Assembly: GCA_030583665.1 (NCBI GenBank)
Contig: CP129469.1
Span: 1-64,000, forward strand
Length of the DNA: 64,000 bases
Direction of reading: 5' to 3'
Source: Candidatus Jettenia sp. AMX2
GTDB lineage: Bacteria > Planctomycetota > Brocadiia > Brocadiales > Brocadiaceae
Each line of letters begins with the position of its first letter. The first letter of the stretch is position 1. Below the pieces are notes generated by a model. The model saw only the letters and a list, made by a program, of their open reading frames with translations, was not told the DNA's origin and made no database searches. Both the position numbers and the translations under genes were made by a program. Shown here piece by piece: positions 22,850-31,217 of this stretch.

Positions 22850-24693
22850 CTGACATTCAAGAGGTTTTTTTCTTCTTAAGCAGAAGAAATCGTTTTTAAT
22901 GATTGATAGATTGCAGTATCAAAGGCGAAATAATTCAGAATATCCTCATGCAGTTGCGTAAAATTGGTAACCTGCTTAAAGACAGACTCACCAAGAGAGA
23001 CAACAACCACAGCTATTCCTCTCATATTTTGAAACAGTACTCTCCCTGTTGGATTATCAGTTAGTCCCTTATTACCCGGTATGCTCTTCTGATCCCTTTT
23101 CAGTGACTGTCTTATCTGCCGTTGCATCAGCGTATATACCATAAGGGCTACCAGATAAACAAATCCTAAGACCGCAATTCTCTTTGGATCCTTCAGGAAG
23201 ATAGGAGCTACTGCTGCAGGATTCTTAGCCCATTTAAAGTTTGTCTCCACTGAAGACTGTCCCTTGTATGCCTTCAGAATCTCTGCATCAGTCATCCGGG
23301 AAGAATCCAAAATATTCGTTACCAGAATGAATTTGTTCAGTCTTTGCTTACTCTGAGAGAGGTGCTCAGCGTCTTCCTGAAAAGAGAGATTTACTGTCCA
23401 ACTCTCCCTCTGGGGAAGTTGTTCTCCTGCTCTTGGTCGGCCTCTGTGCTGTCTTTTTTCAATAACCGTTCTCTTCTCCCTCTCAAAGCCCAACCTATGA
23501 TAGTCTACCTTGATCTGTTTTCTGAGTTTATCAATTTCCCTCAGCGCATCCTCCTCACAAGCAAATTCCCTTTTCTGTATCCCCTGAGAAAGTTTCGTAA
23601 GCCCCTGATATTCCTTTTCTTTCTTTGCCTTCCATACCCTTTCTTTCTGTTTCTGAAGGGCGGTTGATTCCACTACCACAAACCTCATCTGCCTGTGTCT
23701 TTGCTCTGCGTTGTCTGTCTTATAGACATAAGGTGCTATCAGAGAAAACCCCCGGTACTCTTCATATTCTCCTTTTCTCCTACCTGGGGTAGTCAAAAGA
23801 ATCTCTGATGGCTTATCCTCCTTGAGTATCTCCTCATACATCCCTACCGTTTTTGGCATCAAACTGATAAAAGAAATCCCCTGCTCAAAGGCCATCTCTA
23901 CGGTTGGGGCAGAAAAAAATTTACTATCCGAAACAAGGATGCTCCGGGAAATATCCGGCACTATCTCTCGCAATGTTTCCAGGTTAAACCGGTTCTCCGT
24001 GCTGTCAGAGGTGTTCCCCGAGGTAATCCTTCCTGTAAGAGGAACTCCCCCATCTCCACTAACCGTCATTCCAAATAGTACTTGCTTGAGGTCTGTTCTC
24101 TTATCCTTACTATGTCCATACGTAATTCTCGGAATGTCATCCCCATCTTCTTCTTGCTCATAAGCACCGTACAGGCTAATACTGGTAGTATCAAAATGCA
24201 GCTTCTCCAGTCCTAGCGAGTATTTCATGATAGCTTTTGCTATGAGCTTTGAATACAACATTCCCAAACCGGCTTCCCACATCTGATCCAGTGCCACCCC
24301 TAACCGGTTATCATGGAATGACTCGGCCTTAATCTGTTTCTGGAAAACAATCTCGGTATCATAGTCACCCAATACTTCTGAGACTTTGTACAGAGCATGC
24401 TGACCGGTCAGGATTGACAAGACCATTGCCTGGAGACATTCTCCGGTACTTACACAATTGAGTTTGTGAGAATCAACCAGTTCGTCGATAATCTGACCAA
24501 TTTCCAGGTATCGCATACAAGCTGATACCAAAGGAAGGTGATCAAGTCTCTTGGCAGTTAGAATTTCAAAAGATTCACTCCCCTGCATACCTTTTCCTTT
24601 CTTTTCTGAAGGTTTTTACCGGGTAGATTAATCTATCTTCCTAAAAAATCAATTAAATTTTATCTTTTCTCTGAAAAACCTCTTGAATGTCAG
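22850..24693 (-). mobile_element. IS1634-family (IS4-like) insertion sequence
   Basis: This 1844-bp element has perfect 20-bp terminal inverted repeats, CTGACATTCAAGAGGTTTTT at 22850-22869 and its complement at 24674-24693. It is flanked by the 6-bp target duplication TTGAAG (22844-22849 and 24694-24699). It contains one complete transposase gene on the minus strand. Intact ends, intact transposase and exact target duplication indicate a recent insertion. It interrupts the PLD-helicase gene. Confidence 0.92.
22876..24588 (-). CDS. IS1634-family transposase
   Basis: This 570-residue DDE transposase has an N-terminal DUF4277-like region (DHLPLVSACMRYLEIGQIID). The first catalytic segment is LHFDTTSISLYGAYE and the second VSDSKFFSAPTVEMA. 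The C-terminal part has SSVETNFKWAKNPAAVAPIF with the catalytic Glu. The length is usual for the family. It fills nearly all of the element, starting at 24588 about 100 bases inside the right end. Confidence 0.92.
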   Translation of the reverse strand: MQGSESFEILTAKRLDHLPLVSACMRYLEIGQIIDELVDSHKLNCVSTGECLQAMVLSILTGQHALYKVSEVLGDYDTEIVFQKQIKAESFHDNRLGVALDQMWEAGLGMLYSKLIAKAIMKYSLGLEKLHFDTTSISLYGAYEQEEDGDDIPRITYGHSKDKRTDLKQVLFGMTVSGDGGVPLTGRITSGNTSDSTENRFNLETLREIVPDISRSILVSDSKFFSAPTVEMAFEQGISFISLMPKTVGMYEEILKEDKPSEILLTTPGRRKGEYEEYRGFSLIAPYVYKTDNAEQRHRQMRFVVVESTALQKQKERVWKAKKEKEYQGLTKLSQGIQKREFACEEDALREIDKLRKQIKVDYHRLGFEREKRTVIEKRQHRGRPRAGEQLPQRESWTVNLSFQEDAEHLSQSKQRLNKFILVTNILDSSRMTDAEILKAYKGQSSVETNFKWAKNPAAVAPIFLKDPKRIAVLGFVYLVALMVYTLMQRQIRQSLKRDQKSIPGNKGLTDNPTGRVLFQNMRGIAVVVVSLGESVFKQVTNFTQLHEDILNYFAFDTAIYQSLKTISSA

Positions 24694-27602
24694 TTGAAGA
24701 AGTAGAAAAATCGGAGGATCGTCGAACCGTTGAAGAGGGCATTATTAAGTTTATTGAATGGCTTAAAAGCGGGAAATTGGAAATCAGGGCTTATCCAACA
24801 GAAAACATTCACGCAAAGCTTTACATTATGACATTTGTTACAGGTGACAGGGATATCGGAAGGGTCATTACAGGATCAAGCAACTTCACTCAATCAGGTC
24901 TTATCGATAACTTTGAGTTTAATGTCGAGTTAAAAAACAGGGCTGATTATGAATTCGCATTACAGAAATTTAATGAATTATGGAAAGATGCAGTTGATGT
25001 ACGAGAAAAGTATATTGATATTATTCAGATAAGAACATGGCTGAATAATACTATTACTCCATATGAATTATATTTAAAATTTTTATATGAATATTTCAAA
25101 GATGAACTCGGTCAAACTGATGAAGTGTTTTTGAAATATCTTCCCCAGGAATTTAAAAAACTGGAATATCAGGAGCAGGCAGTTTTAAATGCACGAAAAA
25201 TACTTCAGGAATACGGCGGTGTTTTTATCTCTGATGTTGTAGGCTTGGGAAAGACATATATATCGGCAGTGCTGGCAGGTCAGCTTGAGGGCAGAACCCT
25301 TGTCGTTGCCCCACCCGTTCTTCTTGAAAAATCGAATCCCGGTTCATGGCCCAATGTATTTTCTGATTTCAGGGTGCCTGCTGACTTTGAATCACTCGGC
25401 AAACTGGATGACCTTATTGAAAGAGGGACAGAGAAATACACCAATATCATTATTGATGAGGCGCACCGTTTTAGAACTGAAACAACTATCACCTATGAAA
25501 AGCTGGCGGAAATCTGCCGTGGTAAAAAGGTTATTCTTGTAACGGCGACTCCCTATAACAATGCACCAAAAGATATTTTGAGCCTTTTGAAACTATTTCA
25601 GAAAGCCAGAAAAAGCACTATCCCAAATCTGCCAGATCTCGAAGGCTTCTTTCATGGTCTGGATAAAAAGTTAAAAAGGCTGGACAGGCAGAAAGATCAC
25701 ACTGAATACATAAATATGGTAAAAGAAAATGCGTTGGAAATACGAGAAAAAGTCCTTAAATATTTAATGGTTCACCGTACCAGAACAGAGATTGAAAAGT
25801 ATTTCGGTAAAGACATAAAGAGCCAAAATCTTAAATTTCCTGATGTTGAAAAACCAGTTCCTCTTTTTTATGAACTTAATGATAAGGAGGATGAAATATT
25901 CGACAAAACCATAGAATTGATCATAAAAATATTCAAATATGCCCGCTATATGCCCATGCTTTATTATGAAGGTAAAATTTCACAACCAGAGGAACTTTCG
26001 CAAAAGAACATGGGCAAGTTTATGAAAATCCTGCTGGTGAAGCGCCTTGAAAGTAGTTTCTATGCATTTAAAAATTCGGTTGACAGATTCCTGCGCTCTT
26101 ACGAGATGTTTATAAAAGAGTTTGATAACGGTAATGTGTATGTGAGCAAAAAGCACACAAATAAAATATTTGAATTGCTGGAGAACGATGACGATGAAGC
26201 CATTCAGCGATTGATAGATGAAGGCAAGGCGGAAAGACATGCAAGCAGTGAATTTCGGAAAGGCTTAAGAGAAGACTTACAGCACGACCATGACGTCCTC
26301 CTTGAGATTAAAAAACTATGGCATCGTATTGACCGCGACCCGAAGTTTTTAAAATTTTTAGGGGAATTATCAAAAAATCCGGTTTTAAAAGAAAACCATC
26401 TGATTATCTTTACAGAATCAAAGGAAACCGCAAACTATCTGTTTAAAAATATAAATCAACAATATCCGGATAAGGTGTTGTGTTTCACCGGAGATTCAGG
26501 CGAGGCAACCCGTGACAAGGTCATTGAAAATTTTGATGCCAGGGCACGACAACCGAAAAAAGATTACCGGATACTGGTCTCCACTGAAGTGCTGGCCGAA
26601 GGCGTTAACCTGCACCGCTCCAATACCGTGATAAATTACGATATCCCATGGAATCCTACCCGTATGATGCAGCGGGTAGGGCGCGTCAACCGTGTGGATA
26701 CACCATTTGACACGATTCATACCTATAACTTTTTCCCGACCAAACAATCTAACGACCAGATAAAACTAAAAGAAGTGGCAGAGGCAAAAATCAATGCCTT
26801 CTTAACCCTGCTTGGCGGTGACGCAGAACTATTGACTGAAGGAGAACCCATTGGTTCGCATGAACTCTTTAACCGCCTGATTTCCAAACAGACTTTGGAA
26901 GGCGATGAAGGGGCAGAGGAAAGCGAATTGAAATACCTCCAGGTGATAAAGGAGATTCGCGATAAAGACCCTGACCTTTTCGAAAAGGTAAAACGACTCC
27001 CCAAAAAGGCGCGAACAGCCAAAACCCTGACAGGGTTGAGAACTCTGTCAGGCTTAATTACCTATTTCAGGCGGGGAAAGCTGCAGAAATTTTTTAAAGC
27101 CAGCCATAAAAATGAGGCTGAGGAAATGGATTTTATATCTGCTGCAAAACTGCTGGAGAGCAGTCCTGATGAAACTAAGGAAAACCTTCCCGAACAGTTT
27201 TACGACCTTCTGGATAAAAACAAAGAGGCATTTATTTTGGCGACAACGGAAGAAATGCCGCATCACGGGCAAAGGGGAGGTCGTGACAGCGCTGCAAATA
27301 TCCTGAGAATTTTAAAGGCAACACTGAAGAATACCCAAAAACTTACAGAAGACCAGGAACTATACCTGAAAAAGGTCATGATACAGCTTGAGGAAGGCGG
27401 ATTGCCTAAGCAGACGGCAATCCAGACACTGAAGGCACTGAATGCGCTTAAAAATGAAATTGTTAATCCGTTCAAGGTGCTGGCGGTGCTTCAGACCCAC
27501 ATCCCGGCAAGACTTCTGGAAGAACATTATGCAGAACGGAACCCTGTGGTATTTGGCAAACGGGAGGTCATACTATCATTATATTTAACAACAAAACCCT
27601 GA
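24694..27602 (+). pseudogene. PLD-nuclease/SF2 (SNF2-like) helicase, main C-terminal part
   Basis: This is the remainder of the split defence helicase (about 967 residues; roughly 1066 when rejoined). The PLD domain ends with HAKLYIM and GSSNFTQSGL (HxK and GSxN motifs). The helicase has ISDVVGLGKTYISAVLAGQ (Walker A), IIIDEAHRFR (DEAH), VTATPYNNAP (motif III) and STEVLAEGVNLHRSN...QRVGRVNRVD (motifs V-VI). An in-frame REP doublet at 27023-27055 adds KTLTGLRTLSGLI. The stop codon TGA at 27600-27602 lies inside another REP, so the natural C terminus may be lost. Its position before an Eco57I-like methylase suggests a restriction-modification-like system. A long frame could still be translated from an ATG at 24687. 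Confidence 0.85.
27023..27055. repeat. REP doublet inside the helicase coding sequence
   Basis: AACCCTGACAGGGTT (27023-27037), spacer GAG, then AACTCTGTCAGGCTT (27041-27055), a two-mismatch version of the complement. The 33 bp equal exactly 11 codons, so the helicase frame is kept. The same layout flanks the RAYT gene 600 bp downstream. Confidence 0.85.
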
Positions 27603-27627
27603 CAGGGTTCCGAACCCTGTCAGGGTT
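27595..27627. repeat. REP doublet left of the RAYT gene
   Basis: AACCCTGACAGGGTT (27595-27609), spacer CCG, AACCCTGTCAGGGTT (27613-27627). The helicase stop codon lies within the first unit. It precedes the RAYT start by 25 bases. Confidence 0.92.
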
Positions 27628-27652
27628 GTTTGCTTAGTTTTGGAGGAAAACA

Positions 27653-28216
27653 ATGAGTACAACTGTTACGCCGCTGTTACCAGGAAACTGGTATCATATT
27701 TACAATCGGGGTATCAATGGCGAAACTCTTTACCACACAGAGGCAAATTACCAATACTTTCTGGACTTGCTCGCCAAATATGTTTTCCACACAGCAAAAA
27801 TCTATGCGTATTGTCTTATGAAGAACCATTTTCATTTGTTAGTTTCTATTCGTGATGATACAGAGAGGATGCCACATCTCTATTTTTCAGACATGTTTAA
27901 CAGCTATACACAAGGGCTTAACAAACTAATGGGACGGAGTGGGAGTCTCTTTGAACGCCCCTTTCGCCGTAAGGTGATTCTCTCTGAAAAACAACGAGTC
28001 CAGGTAACTATCTATATACACAATAATCCCAGACATCATGGTATTATCAACAGCTTTGCGAAGTACCGATACTCATCTTACAGTACCGTGCTATCGAACG
28101 CCCCAACTAAAATAGAGCGTGAAGAAGTGCTTTCCTGGTTTGGTGGACGTGATGGTTTTCTGGCGTATCATAGCGCTGGTTGTGATGATATTTCAGATGA
28201 TCTAATATTGGAGTAA
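27653..28216 (+). CDS. REP-associated tyrosine transposase (RAYT)
   Basis: RAYTs are single-domain HUH (Y1) transposases related to IS200/IS605 that nick and spread REP palindromes. The 187-residue product has GNWYHIYNRG near the N terminus, the HUH motif KNHFHLLVS, RSGSLFERPFRRKV, and the Tyr segment IYIHNNPRHHGI. All expected RAYT motifs are present, so it may be active. ATG 27653 has GGAGG 6 bases upstream. It is bracketed at 25 and 10 bases by REP doublets of identical design, so the unit behaves as a REP-RAYT-REP cassette placed between the helicase and methylase genes. Confidence 0.92.
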   Translation: MSTTVTPLLPGNWYHIYNRGINGETLYHTEANYQYFLDLLAKYVFHTAKIYAYCLMKNHFHLLVSIRDDTERMPHLYFSDMFNSYTQGLNKLMGRSGSLFERPFRRKVILSEKQRVQVTIYIHNNPRHHGIINSFAKYRYSSYSTVLSNAPTKIEREEVLSWFGGRDGFLAYHSAGCDDISDDLILE

Positions 28217-28226
28217 ATTTACCGGT

Positions 28227-28259
28227 AACCCTGACAGGGTTTGGAACCCTGTCAGGGTT
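28227..28259. repeat. REP doublet right of the RAYT gene
   Basis: AACCCTGACAGGGTT (28227-28241), spacer TGG, AACCCTGTCAGGGTT (28245-28259). It ends 14 bases before the methylase ATG, where no Shine-Dalgarno remains, so it may have displaced the methylase ribosome site. Confidence 0.92.
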
Positions 28260-28678
28260 AATTAATAAATATTATGGACAAACATCAGGCACAAAACATT
28301 ATCAGAGAAACCTTTGAAAGTGCTTTTGATAAAGATCGGTTTGTTGGTTTTATCAAAAACCTTTTAAAGCGGATCGAGGAAGCGACGTTTACATACAAAG
28401 GACAAATCATTCGTGAAGAATACAGACAATATATTAGTACATTTGAAAGAATAGGTAAATTCAATGACGGTGAAAACAGGATTGATATCCTTATCGTAAA
28501 ACTCCAAAAAGAGACCTCTCTCGAACGCGCCCGCTCGATGCAGAGAAAATTTGTTGCCGGTTATTTACAAGGCAAATATGGCAGTTCAAATGAAAAAGAA
28601 GCGGCATTGGTTGCCTTTGTATCCCCCGATGCGGCAGACTGGCGTTTCTCATTGGTCAAGATGGACTACAGGTTTGAA

Positions 28679-28708
28679 CCTGCCTGCGCCGTAGACGCGG
28701 CAGGCAGG
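28679..28708. repeat. Hairpin repeat inside the methylase gene (CCTGCCTGC type)
   Basis: CCTGCCTGC (28679-28687) pairs with GCAGGCAGG (28700-28708). It encodes PACAVDAAGR in frame. Its composition is unlike the surrounding coding DNA, and it appears to be an inserted palindrome. Confidence 0.65.
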
Positions 28709-28962
28709 CATACTCAAACCGGTAGAATGAAGGTAAAGGAAGAGTTTACACCTGCACGGCGCTGGTCATTCCTGGTTGGCGCAAACGAAAATAGCCATAC
28801 AGCCCAGAGCAGACTTGTTAATATCCTTGCAAATGATGAACACAGCCCAACCCTTGTCGAACTGGAACAGGCATTTGACATCGAAACCGTTACCAAAGAA
28901 TTTTTCATCAAATACCGTGAACTTTTCATCCGTACAAAGGAAGAACTGGACAAAATAGTAGC

Positions 28963-28979
28963 GCAGGCTTCCAGCCTGC
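28963..28979. repeat. Hairpin repeat inside the methylase gene (GCAGGCT type)
   Basis: GCAGGCT-TCC-AGCCTGC is a 7-bp stem with a 3-base loop. It encodes AQASSLQ in frame. Confidence 0.6.
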
Positions 28980-29160
28980 AGAATGAATTTAAATCGAAGG
29001 GGGTCGATACCGTAAACTTTGCCAAAAAACTCTTAGGCCAGATTGTCTTTCTCTATTTTTTACAGAAAAAAGGCTGGTTCGGCGTTGCTAGCAATGCCGA
29101 ATGGGGCACCGGTTCCAAACACTTTTTGCGTGAGCTTTTTGAGAAAAAGCACGGCGATTA

Positions 29161-29190
29161 CCTGCCCGCCGAAGCCTCGGCGCAGGCGGG
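29161..29190. repeat. Hairpin repeat inside the methylase gene (CCCGCC type)
   Basis: CCCGCC (29165-29170) pairs with GGCGGG (29185-29190), with an inner GCC-TC-GGC stem. It encodes PAEASAQAG in frame, a low-complexity insert between otherwise conserved residues. Confidence 0.65.
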
Positions 29191-29722
29191 TAAAAATTTC
29201 TTCAATGACATCCTGGAGCCTCTCTTTTATGAAGCCCTGCGCATAGACCGCAGCCATGATGATCACTATTACAGCCGATTTGACTGCAAAATCCCCTTCC
29301 TAAATGGAGGTCTTTTTGACCCCATCGGCAGCAATGGTGGATACGACTGGGTGCATGCCGATATCTGCCTGCCCGATAGCCTGTTCTCTAATAAAAATAA
29401 GACAAAAGAAGGTGATGTTGGTGATGGTATTCTGGATATTTTTGACCGCTACAACTTTACCGTGAGAGAAGACGAGCCGATGGAAAAGGAGGTTGCCATT
29501 GACCCTGAACTGCTGGGCAAGGCATATGAAAAGTTCAATGCCATCCGTCCTGACAACTTTGAGGAATATAAAAAGGCGTTAAAGAGCGGGAAAAAAGGCG
29601 AAGAAAGCAAATTCAACAAGCAATACGGCGTATATTACACGCCCCGTGAGATTGTCCACTATATGTGCCAGCAGAGCCTGATCAATTACCTGCATACAGA
29701 ATTGACCAATCCTAACCTTCCC

Positions 29723-29737
29723 AACCCTGTCAGGGTT
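29723..29737. repeat. Single REP inside the methylase gene
   Basis: AACCCTGTCAGGGTT, read as NPVRV in frame, just before motif I of the methylase. Confidence 0.85.
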
Positions 29738-30159
29738 AAGGCAGATAACGGTATCATTACTTATCAAATATTTGGTGAAAACCAGTTGTCTATGTTTGGT
29801 AACGAAGTCAAAAAAGGGCAATTGGATTTAATTATTGAACATGGTTCCAAGCCAGTAATTTCAAAAGAAGACATAGAAACCCTGATACACTCCGGCGAGC
29901 AGGTTAGTGAAAACGAAGAAGTAGCATTGATCAAAGAACAAAAAATCTTAGAGGGCAAACAAAAATCTTCGGATTACAAATTAAAACTGCCCGAAAGCAT
30001 CCGGAAAAACGCAAGCCTGATGGACCAAAAGCTGGCAGATATCACCGTCTGCGACCCGGCGGTAGGTTCAGGCGCCTTTCCCGTAGGTATGATGAATGAA
30101 ATAGTAAAAGCCAGAAATACACTGTCTGTATTTATAACACTGCCTAAAGTAACTCAAGA

Positions 30160-30174
30160 AACCCTGTCAGGGTT
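30160..30174. repeat. Single REP inside the methylase gene, second copy
   Basis: AACCCTGTCAGGGTT, read here in a different phase as TLSGL, between motif I and NPPY. Confidence 0.85.
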
Positions 30175-31217
30175 AAGGCCGGATACGCAGAGAACAACCT
30201 ACGACTTCAAACGGCACTGCATTGAACACTCCCTTTACGGTGTGGATATTGACCCCGGCGCCGTGGAAATTGCGAAACTTCGGCTGTGGCTATCGCTTGT
30301 GGTAGATGAAGATGACATAAAAAATATCAAGCCTTTGCCGAATCTGGATTACAAGATTGTCTGCGGAAATTCACTTTTAGGAGTGGAAAAAAACCTGTTT
30401 AACAATGAACTATTTAAAAAACTTGAAAGGATAAAGCCATTCTTCTTCAACGAAACCAACCCCACAAAGAAGCTGGACTATAAAAAGCAGATTGATGAAC
30501 TGATAAGCCAGATTACTAATGGGCACACAGAATTTGACTTTGAGGTTTATTTTTCCGAGGTGTTTCACCATAAAGGTGGGTTTGATGTGGTGATAGCCAA
30601 TCCACCGTATATTAGTCATGACAAAATTCTTGTTGAAAAAAAACTATTAAAAAAACAGTATCAATCTTACGAACCGTTTGCTGACATCTACTGCTTCTTT
30701 ATTGAAAAGGGAATTAAGTTACAGAACAAAAAAGGCATTCTGAGTTTCATTACTTCGAATTCATATCTGCGAGCCGAATATGGCACGCCACTTAGAAAAT
30801 TAATACGGAAGGAAAATGAACTTCTTGACATTGTTAATCTTGAAGATACTCAATTTTTTGAAGACGCGATCATAAATGTGACAATTCTTATCTCAGCTAA
30901 GGGCTTTTTAAGAAGAAAATGCTTTATTTTCAGTCAGCCTTTTTCAGGCAGCATTTCTAATTTTGCTGAGTATATAACTTCCAAAGGCTTTCTGTACGAT
31001 CAGATAATCTTTGACTCCAGATCGTGAAGTCTGGTTGAACCAGAAAAAGTTATGATTCAGCAAAAAATTGAGAAAGGTGGAAAAACGCTTGAGCAGCTAG
31101 TCCTTATCCAAGCGTGATTTTTTTACCGAGAGAGGTGAAGTTGGTTGAAATGCCCGAATTTACTGGTTAAAATGGGATTTGCAAAAAAACCAACAACCAG
31201 AAAAAGGGGCATTTCAG

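Follow-up and report, generated by a model that had tools for sequence, protein, structure and literature searches.

How does a restriction gene come to hold several palindromic hairpins inside its coding sequence and still keep its reading frame? We examined this question for the type IIG methylase gene of the anammox-type bacterium Candidatus Jettenia sp. AMX2, within a window formed by positions 1-64,000 of contig CP129469.1 (own genome G000, 3.46 Mb). Besides two repetitive extragenic palindromic (REP) sequences, an earlier note had described three further hairpins in this gene, here called I1, I2 and I3; the sequence and the open reading frame (ORF) confirm all three where the note placed them, in frame. 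We think it likely that these hairpins are footprints of REP-type elements that enter protein loops in frame, and that one of the families involved is borne by REP-associated tyrosine transposases (RAYTs). The gene and its hairpins are as follows.

28274..31027, forward strand: type IIG restriction enzyme-methyltransferase (Eco57I/N6-MTase), 917 aa, lacking its C-terminal part
28679..28708, forward strand: I1, palindromic insertion CCTGCCTGCGCCGTAGACGCGGCAGGCAGG of exactly 30 bp, encoding PACAVDAAGR; site empty in 78 of 80 homologues
28958..28979, forward strand: I2, GTAG-headed REP half-element GTAGCGCAGGCTTCCAGCCTGC, encoding VAQASSLQ; its 22-mer equals REPs flanking in-frame RAYTs
29162..29191, forward strand: I3, palindromic insertion of 30 bp, encoding LPAEASAQAG; site empty in 80 of 80 homologues

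Hairpin shape by itself is weak evidence, and what supports the case is comparison with homologous genes. When codon order was shuffled, about 3-5% of ORFs gave a hairpin matching I1 in strength, and that of I2 was not significant; the outer arms of I3 measure 6 bp, and single-strand folding gave z-scores of -3.1, -4.1 and -1.8 for I1, I2 and I3, respectively. We aligned the methylase with the 80 homologues and, in a separate DNA alignment, with Brocadiaceae orthologues. I1 is a clean in-frame insertion lying exactly between TTTGAA and CATACTCAA, and all Brocadiaceae orthologues have an empty site. I3 is likewise a clean in-frame insertion, between TAC and AAAAATTTC, with its hairpin CCCGCCGAAGCCTCGGCGCAGGCGGG at 29165-29190. 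Among the Brocadiaceae orthologues, the same insert was present only in G073 (L114), and a different element, the two-hairpin GTAAC..GATAC type, occupied the site in G054 (L112). At the I1 site, L057 carries an I1-like hairpin and L023 another hairpin. The view that the hairpins are inserts thus stands for I1 and I3 but not for I2, which replaces a segment of equal length. For I1 and I3 the alignments demonstrate insertion, of which mobilisation would be the presumed cause.

I2 consists of a GTAG tetranucleotide 5' of a short stem-loop with a stem of 7 bp and a loop of 3; the hairpin GCAGGCTTCCAGCCTGC occupies 28963-28979 (AQASSLQ) and the GTAGC head starts at 28958. The 22-mer is identical to the left REP of an in-frame RAYT in a FabZ gene (L226), and also to the REPs around the in-frame RAYT of a DUF1156 methylase (L179). 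Most embedded RAYTs that we examined have REP hairpins on their flanks, typically with GTAG/GTAA-type heads and mirror-image tails. Judged by this identity, I2 can be firmly assigned as a relic of a RAYT-family element, whose family and transposase were identified in relatives. It is common to B. pituitae, WS118, G060, G068, G054 and the Desulfobacterota L007 and L051, with one base changed in L007; in WS118 and G070, I2 itself contains further elements. No GTAG head lies outside the stem of I1 or I3, and the GACG (reverse complement of CGTC) in the I1 loop is at neither end of the stem-loop. Chance palindromes or ordinary loop-length variation, with the resident REPs as the only real inserts, would accord with the weak hairpin shape and with I2 having the same length as its homologue counterparts. 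The exact 30-bp insertions against DNA-level orthologues, the palindromes, alike or different, that other genomes have at these sites, the 22-base match of I2 to RAYT-flanking REPs and the 11 Patescibacteria genomes (of 380) with the I3 pattern make this explanation very improbable.

The methylase is a member of a widely transferred type IIG restriction locus that pairs it with a PLD/SNF2 helicase. In the window, the partner gene, the resident REPs and the neighbouring transposases are arranged as follows.

24687..27602, forward strand: partner PLD/SNF2 helicase (DrmD-like), with Pfam, PADLOC and NCBIfam matches
27023..27055, forward strand: REP pair, in frame within the loop LPKKART..YFRRGKLQKFF of the helicase (26997-27095)
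27653..28216, forward strand: stand-alone RAYT between helicase and methylase (NF047646, 1.5e-12, below the curated cutoff)
29723..29737, forward strand: resident REP (AACCCTGTCAGGGTT) in the methylase loop that follows the YTPREIV motif
30160..30174, forward strand: resident REP in a second methylase loop
31179..32744, forward strand: IS1380 transposase downstream of the truncated methylase (NF033539, 2.5e-90)

The stand-alone RAYT has REP pairs on both sides (27595-27627 and 28227-28259). Orthologues of the locus from several phyla contain complete RAYTs in frame, in the methylase of three genomes and in the helicase of three, with one further helicase fragment. In the methylase loop after YTPREIV, WS118 (Planctomycetota) has a complete RAYT in the same open frame of 1367 aa. 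In L057 and G054, it is the second methylase loop that contains a complete RAYT in frame, with 952 aa up to the contig end in the former and 896 aa within the locus in the latter; the G054 methylase also has a frameshift near residue 262. Pfam scans of the RAYT-bearing methylases found Eco57I and Y1_Tnp in one polypeptide. The helicase loop, which measures about 31 aa in the majority of 49 loci, carries a complete in-frame RAYT in L023 (1294 aa), L069 (900 aa, contig edge) and L080 (1287 aa) and a RAYT fragment in L003; by their records, L023 belongs to Bacteroidota and L080 to Nitrospirota. Across the 49 loci this loop is hypervariable, and the palindromes that fill it in different phyla come from several unrelated families. 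A methylase loop of B. pituitae (L002:7603-7842) has three different palindrome families in frame, side by side.

We searched with an embedded RAYT in 60 genomes and then in 392 Planctomycetota genomes. In the first set, each of the eleven closest matches lay in a stop-free frame of 900-1474 aa or at the edge of a contig, and less similar matches were free genes of 157-249 aa; further hosts there were a DUF1156 methylase, Eco57I/PglX-like methylases and type IIG enzymes. In the second set, the hosts of this related RAYT clade included type IIG, PglX-like and N6/N4 methylases, a DinG-like helicase, a salicylyl-CoA hydroxylase-like enzyme, alanyl-tRNA synthetase (AlaRS; 3 loci) and FabZ (10 loci). 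In AlaRS, the RAYT sits in an editing-domain loop before CGGTH (L220:1580-5206, L221:1604-5113 and L225:3000-4913). G507 and G527 have one alaS match each, RAYT-bearing (1209 and 1170 aa); at 90% and 88% completeness, these metagenome-assembled genomes (MAGs) may hold a second copy. The FabZ insertions (L226-L234 and L236) share one site, after CEACFQTGAMLL, in one planctomycete family. The parts of FabZ and AlaRS that are C-terminal to the RAYT each match their family separately, and Pfam and NCBIfam scans found host domains together with Y1_Tnp/REP_Tyr_transpos within single ORFs. The DUF1156-type methylase of WS118 (L179:1398-5483) combines an in-frame RAYT with several in-frame I2-type REP peptides. 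WS118 also has two further in-frame RAYTs (L074 and L180).

The embedded RAYTs match PF01797 above cutoff in most hosts; against NF047646 they score mostly 52-82 bits, with the cutoff of 80 reached only by L222. All copies except one retain the HUH motif (NHVH/NHIH). The length following the RAYT core is bimodal, with 6-39 aa in free copies and 64 aa or more in embedded ones. Pairs of embedded RAYTs gave dN/dS values of 0.04-0.17 where dS was not saturated, ratios by which they evolve under purifying selection. In a 51-row RAYT tree, the embedded label needed 6 changes, compared with 17 under shuffled labels, and the AlaRS- and FabZ-hosted copies were intermixed; together, these patterns indicate movement between host genes. 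As for a vehicle, the search of plasmids for embedded RAYTs gave no match, nor did the pattern search of viral contigs. In another reading, the RAYTs are domesticated domains that serve their hosts, for example in REP or single-stranded DNA binding by methylases, and not mobile passengers; this could draw on the purifying selection and on their repeated occurrence in enzymes that modify DNA. We regard domestication as unlikely, given the RAYTs in FabZ, AlaRS and the salicylyl-CoA hydroxylase-like enzyme, the many orthologues (most of them) that lack a RAYT, the REP flanks and the intermixed hosts in the tree. Inteins are likewise selfish elements with an in-frame position in essential or conserved proteins. 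The insert described here differs in being a Y1 transposase placed in loops that appears to remain in the protein; Pfam and NCBIfam scans of RAYT-bearing hosts found only host domains and Y1_Tnp, and no intein splicing (Hint) domain.

Are the three hairpins, then, residents of this genome? Pattern searches found one copy each of I1, I2 and I3 in the own genome, so they are not resident repeats, and the window copy of I2 is called a relic for this reason. The earlier note had taken them for three further hairpin families and had named uniqueness in the genome as the finding that would speak against this; unique they are, though they are present elsewhere. Multiple copies in the own genome, as GTAG-tagged REPs and Rickettsia palindromic elements (RPEs) have, are thus seen neither for I2 as the former nor for I1 and I3 as the latter; I1 and I3 do resemble RPEs in being in-frame palindromes that homologues lack. 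The AACCCTGTCAGGGTT REP, on the other hand, is resident, with 52 pattern matches in the genome, 7 of them at 27024-30173. Elsewhere, a 15-mer of I2 is present in 12 of 50 homologue-bearing genomes, with all copies inside the restriction locus in the window genome and in the genomes of L002, L023, L034, L046, L051 and L080. The I3 pattern reaches 1-2 copies in each of the Patescibacteria genomes that have it. One I3-family hairpin in Patescibacteria (L158:1501-1526) lies in frame near the start of a putative leucyl-tRNA synthetase, identified by eye. Both I1 and I3 hairpins also occur in viral contigs; those of I1 type were seen there in long open frames (L147, L148 and L150).

Single copies would also result if the families had been acquired in earlier hosts where they were abundant and then brought here by horizontal transfer of the gene. 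The I2 family suits such a history, with 24 matches genome-wide in G032 and copies outside the locus in G046, as does a block of about 180 bp around I2 (28904-29083) that is nearer to the Desulfobacterota alleles L007 and L051 than its flanks are. Genome pattern searches, including the 380 Patescibacteria, found no donor rich in I1 or I3, and even in Patescibacteria I3 stays at the low copy number given above. We consider this history quite possible, if somewhat short of probable; it is compatible with the entry of REP-type elements into loops and does not exclude it. The sequence of the block suggests that short-block exchange may lie behind the I2-bearing allele class common to Brocadiaceae and Desulfobacterota. 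At 28904-29083 the methylases fall into two allele classes, the I2-bearing one being that shared by Brocadiaceae with L007 and L051. A recombination breakpoint with G073 at I3 was considered and dropped; the identity pattern also tracks the two I2 allele classes and general downstream conservation.

We then asked what allows a methylase to carry such inserts. The AlphaFold model of the window methylase (pLDDT 78, pTM 0.82) places I1, I3 and both REP sites in or beside segments with pLDDT below 50, and I2 in a well-predicted helix-helix turn. The suggestion that protein loops tolerate the inserts is borne out by these low-pLDDT loops at I1, I3 and the REP sites and by the other palindromes found at the same sites in other genomes. 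The alternative suggestion, a dying gene under relaxed selection that gathers neutral inserts, could appeal to the truncation. The methylase ORF matches PF07669 (3e-41) and PDLC03596 REase_MTase_IIG (1144.6 bits), but only positions 1-819 of 1148 in the latter profile are covered; the C-terminus is missing, the IS1380 transposase comes next, and a homologue search downstream of the truncation gave no match. Nevertheless, dN/dS against orthologues is 0.085-0.147 (about 0.09), the same as among intact orthologues, and related elements are in frame in alaS and fabZ. As I2 and I3 are present in orthologues of other genomes, they may predate the truncation. As regards the age of the inserts, relaxed selection is thus mostly contradicted, and it retains very little probability.

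The five inserts in one gene had been called exceptional, which holds within the own genome but not against the neighbours. In a 464-kb sample of the own genome, with frames of at least 250 aa counted as in-frame, none of 76 copies of five other resident hairpin families lay in such frames, compared with 3 of 12 copies of the ACCCTGTCAGGGT REP, all in this helicase and methylase. Across homologous loci, hairpin density was 0.088/kb for the methylase, compared with 0.115 for the helicase and 0.146 elsewhere. Being lowest in the methylase, it does not support a special hotspot there.

How, then, would the hairpins have arisen? Protein loops of the type IIG locus would repeatedly take up REP-type palindromes. 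Autonomous members of one family have the form REP-RAYT-REP and lack stop codons in one sense frame. Their insertion would thus leave the host frame readable, with the transposase as a domain within the protein of the host. The Y1 HUH transposase would cut single-stranded DNA beside a GTAG-headed hairpin and rejoin the element elsewhere, and insertions would be retained where a surface loop tolerates an in-frame, stop-free insert. Non-autonomous pieces, such as REP half-elements and pairs, would persist as short in-frame peptides; I2 would be one of these, carried with the gene. The in-frame insertions I1 and I3 would belong to two other palindrome families, both foreign to the own genome, and most simply arrived with the gene or through exchange between alleles. 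Beyond the window, we lean towards the existence of a REP-RAYT clade with a translationally transparent lifestyle. Stop-free in one frame, its members would reside in loops of essential and defence proteins (AlaRS, FabZ, DNA methylases, helicases), move between such genes, cross phyla with restriction systems and persist as an internal domain, intein-like without splicing; the window methylase would bear one footprint of this clade.

Several points weigh on the other side. I2 makes no net insertion, and the RAYT search found no embedded RAYT in the own genome, so its link to RAYTs comes from relatives. Among the loci compared, neither the I1 nor the I3 pattern stood beside a RAYT. Most genomes compared are MAGs, and the structural model of the L057 fusion was poor (pTM 0.50), its low confidence keeping it out of use. 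Activity and movement of the elements, translation of the fusions and cleavage of REPs by embedded RAYTs are steps that we infer from DNA comparisons.

Intragenic REPs are already known: GTAG-tagged stem-loops of the GTAG/CGTC type occur in frame in ORFs that include replication and repair genes (Di Nocera et al. 2013, PMC3733652). The present case shares with them the in-frame GTAG stem-loops and the association of RAYT and REP (REPtrons). It differs in that complete RAYT genes, and not REPs alone, lie inside genes, and in that I1, I2 and I3 are single-copy in their own genome. RPEs, as far as the account cited in PMC3733652 describes them, are also palindromes in frame inside functional genes, but they form families repeated within a single genus and lack a transposase. 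The present locus brings several families together, one of which possesses in-frame transposases across several phyla. REPtrons and their RAYTs (TnpAREP; PMC2817692, PMC3116915, PMC8266576) have the same HUH motif, GTAG-headed REP pairs around the transposase and REPIN-like pairs. There, they are described as stand-alone genes, and TnpAREP as domesticated, whereas the copies here are stop-free inside host ORFs of several genes. A phylogenomic survey of TnpA-Y1, the superfamily to which the embedded RAYTs belong, excluded unexpectedly long proteins as fusions or errors (PMC6006769), and these may include the embedded class. In open-access PMC, with subscription papers not searched, we found no literature on complete in-frame RAYTs in essential genes or on RAYT-methylase fusions; complete in-frame RAYTs in essential genes are thus without a description that we could find.

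Palindromic elements such as RPEs and intragenic REPs spread inside genes without killing them, and no mechanism for this has been shown so far. RAYTs in frame in methylases, helicases, AlaRS and FabZ are a candidate autonomous source of intragenic palindromes, which makes the question testable. They also differ from the view in which RAYTs are domesticated genes that stand alone. For the horizontal transfer of restriction systems, the inserts can be used as markers.
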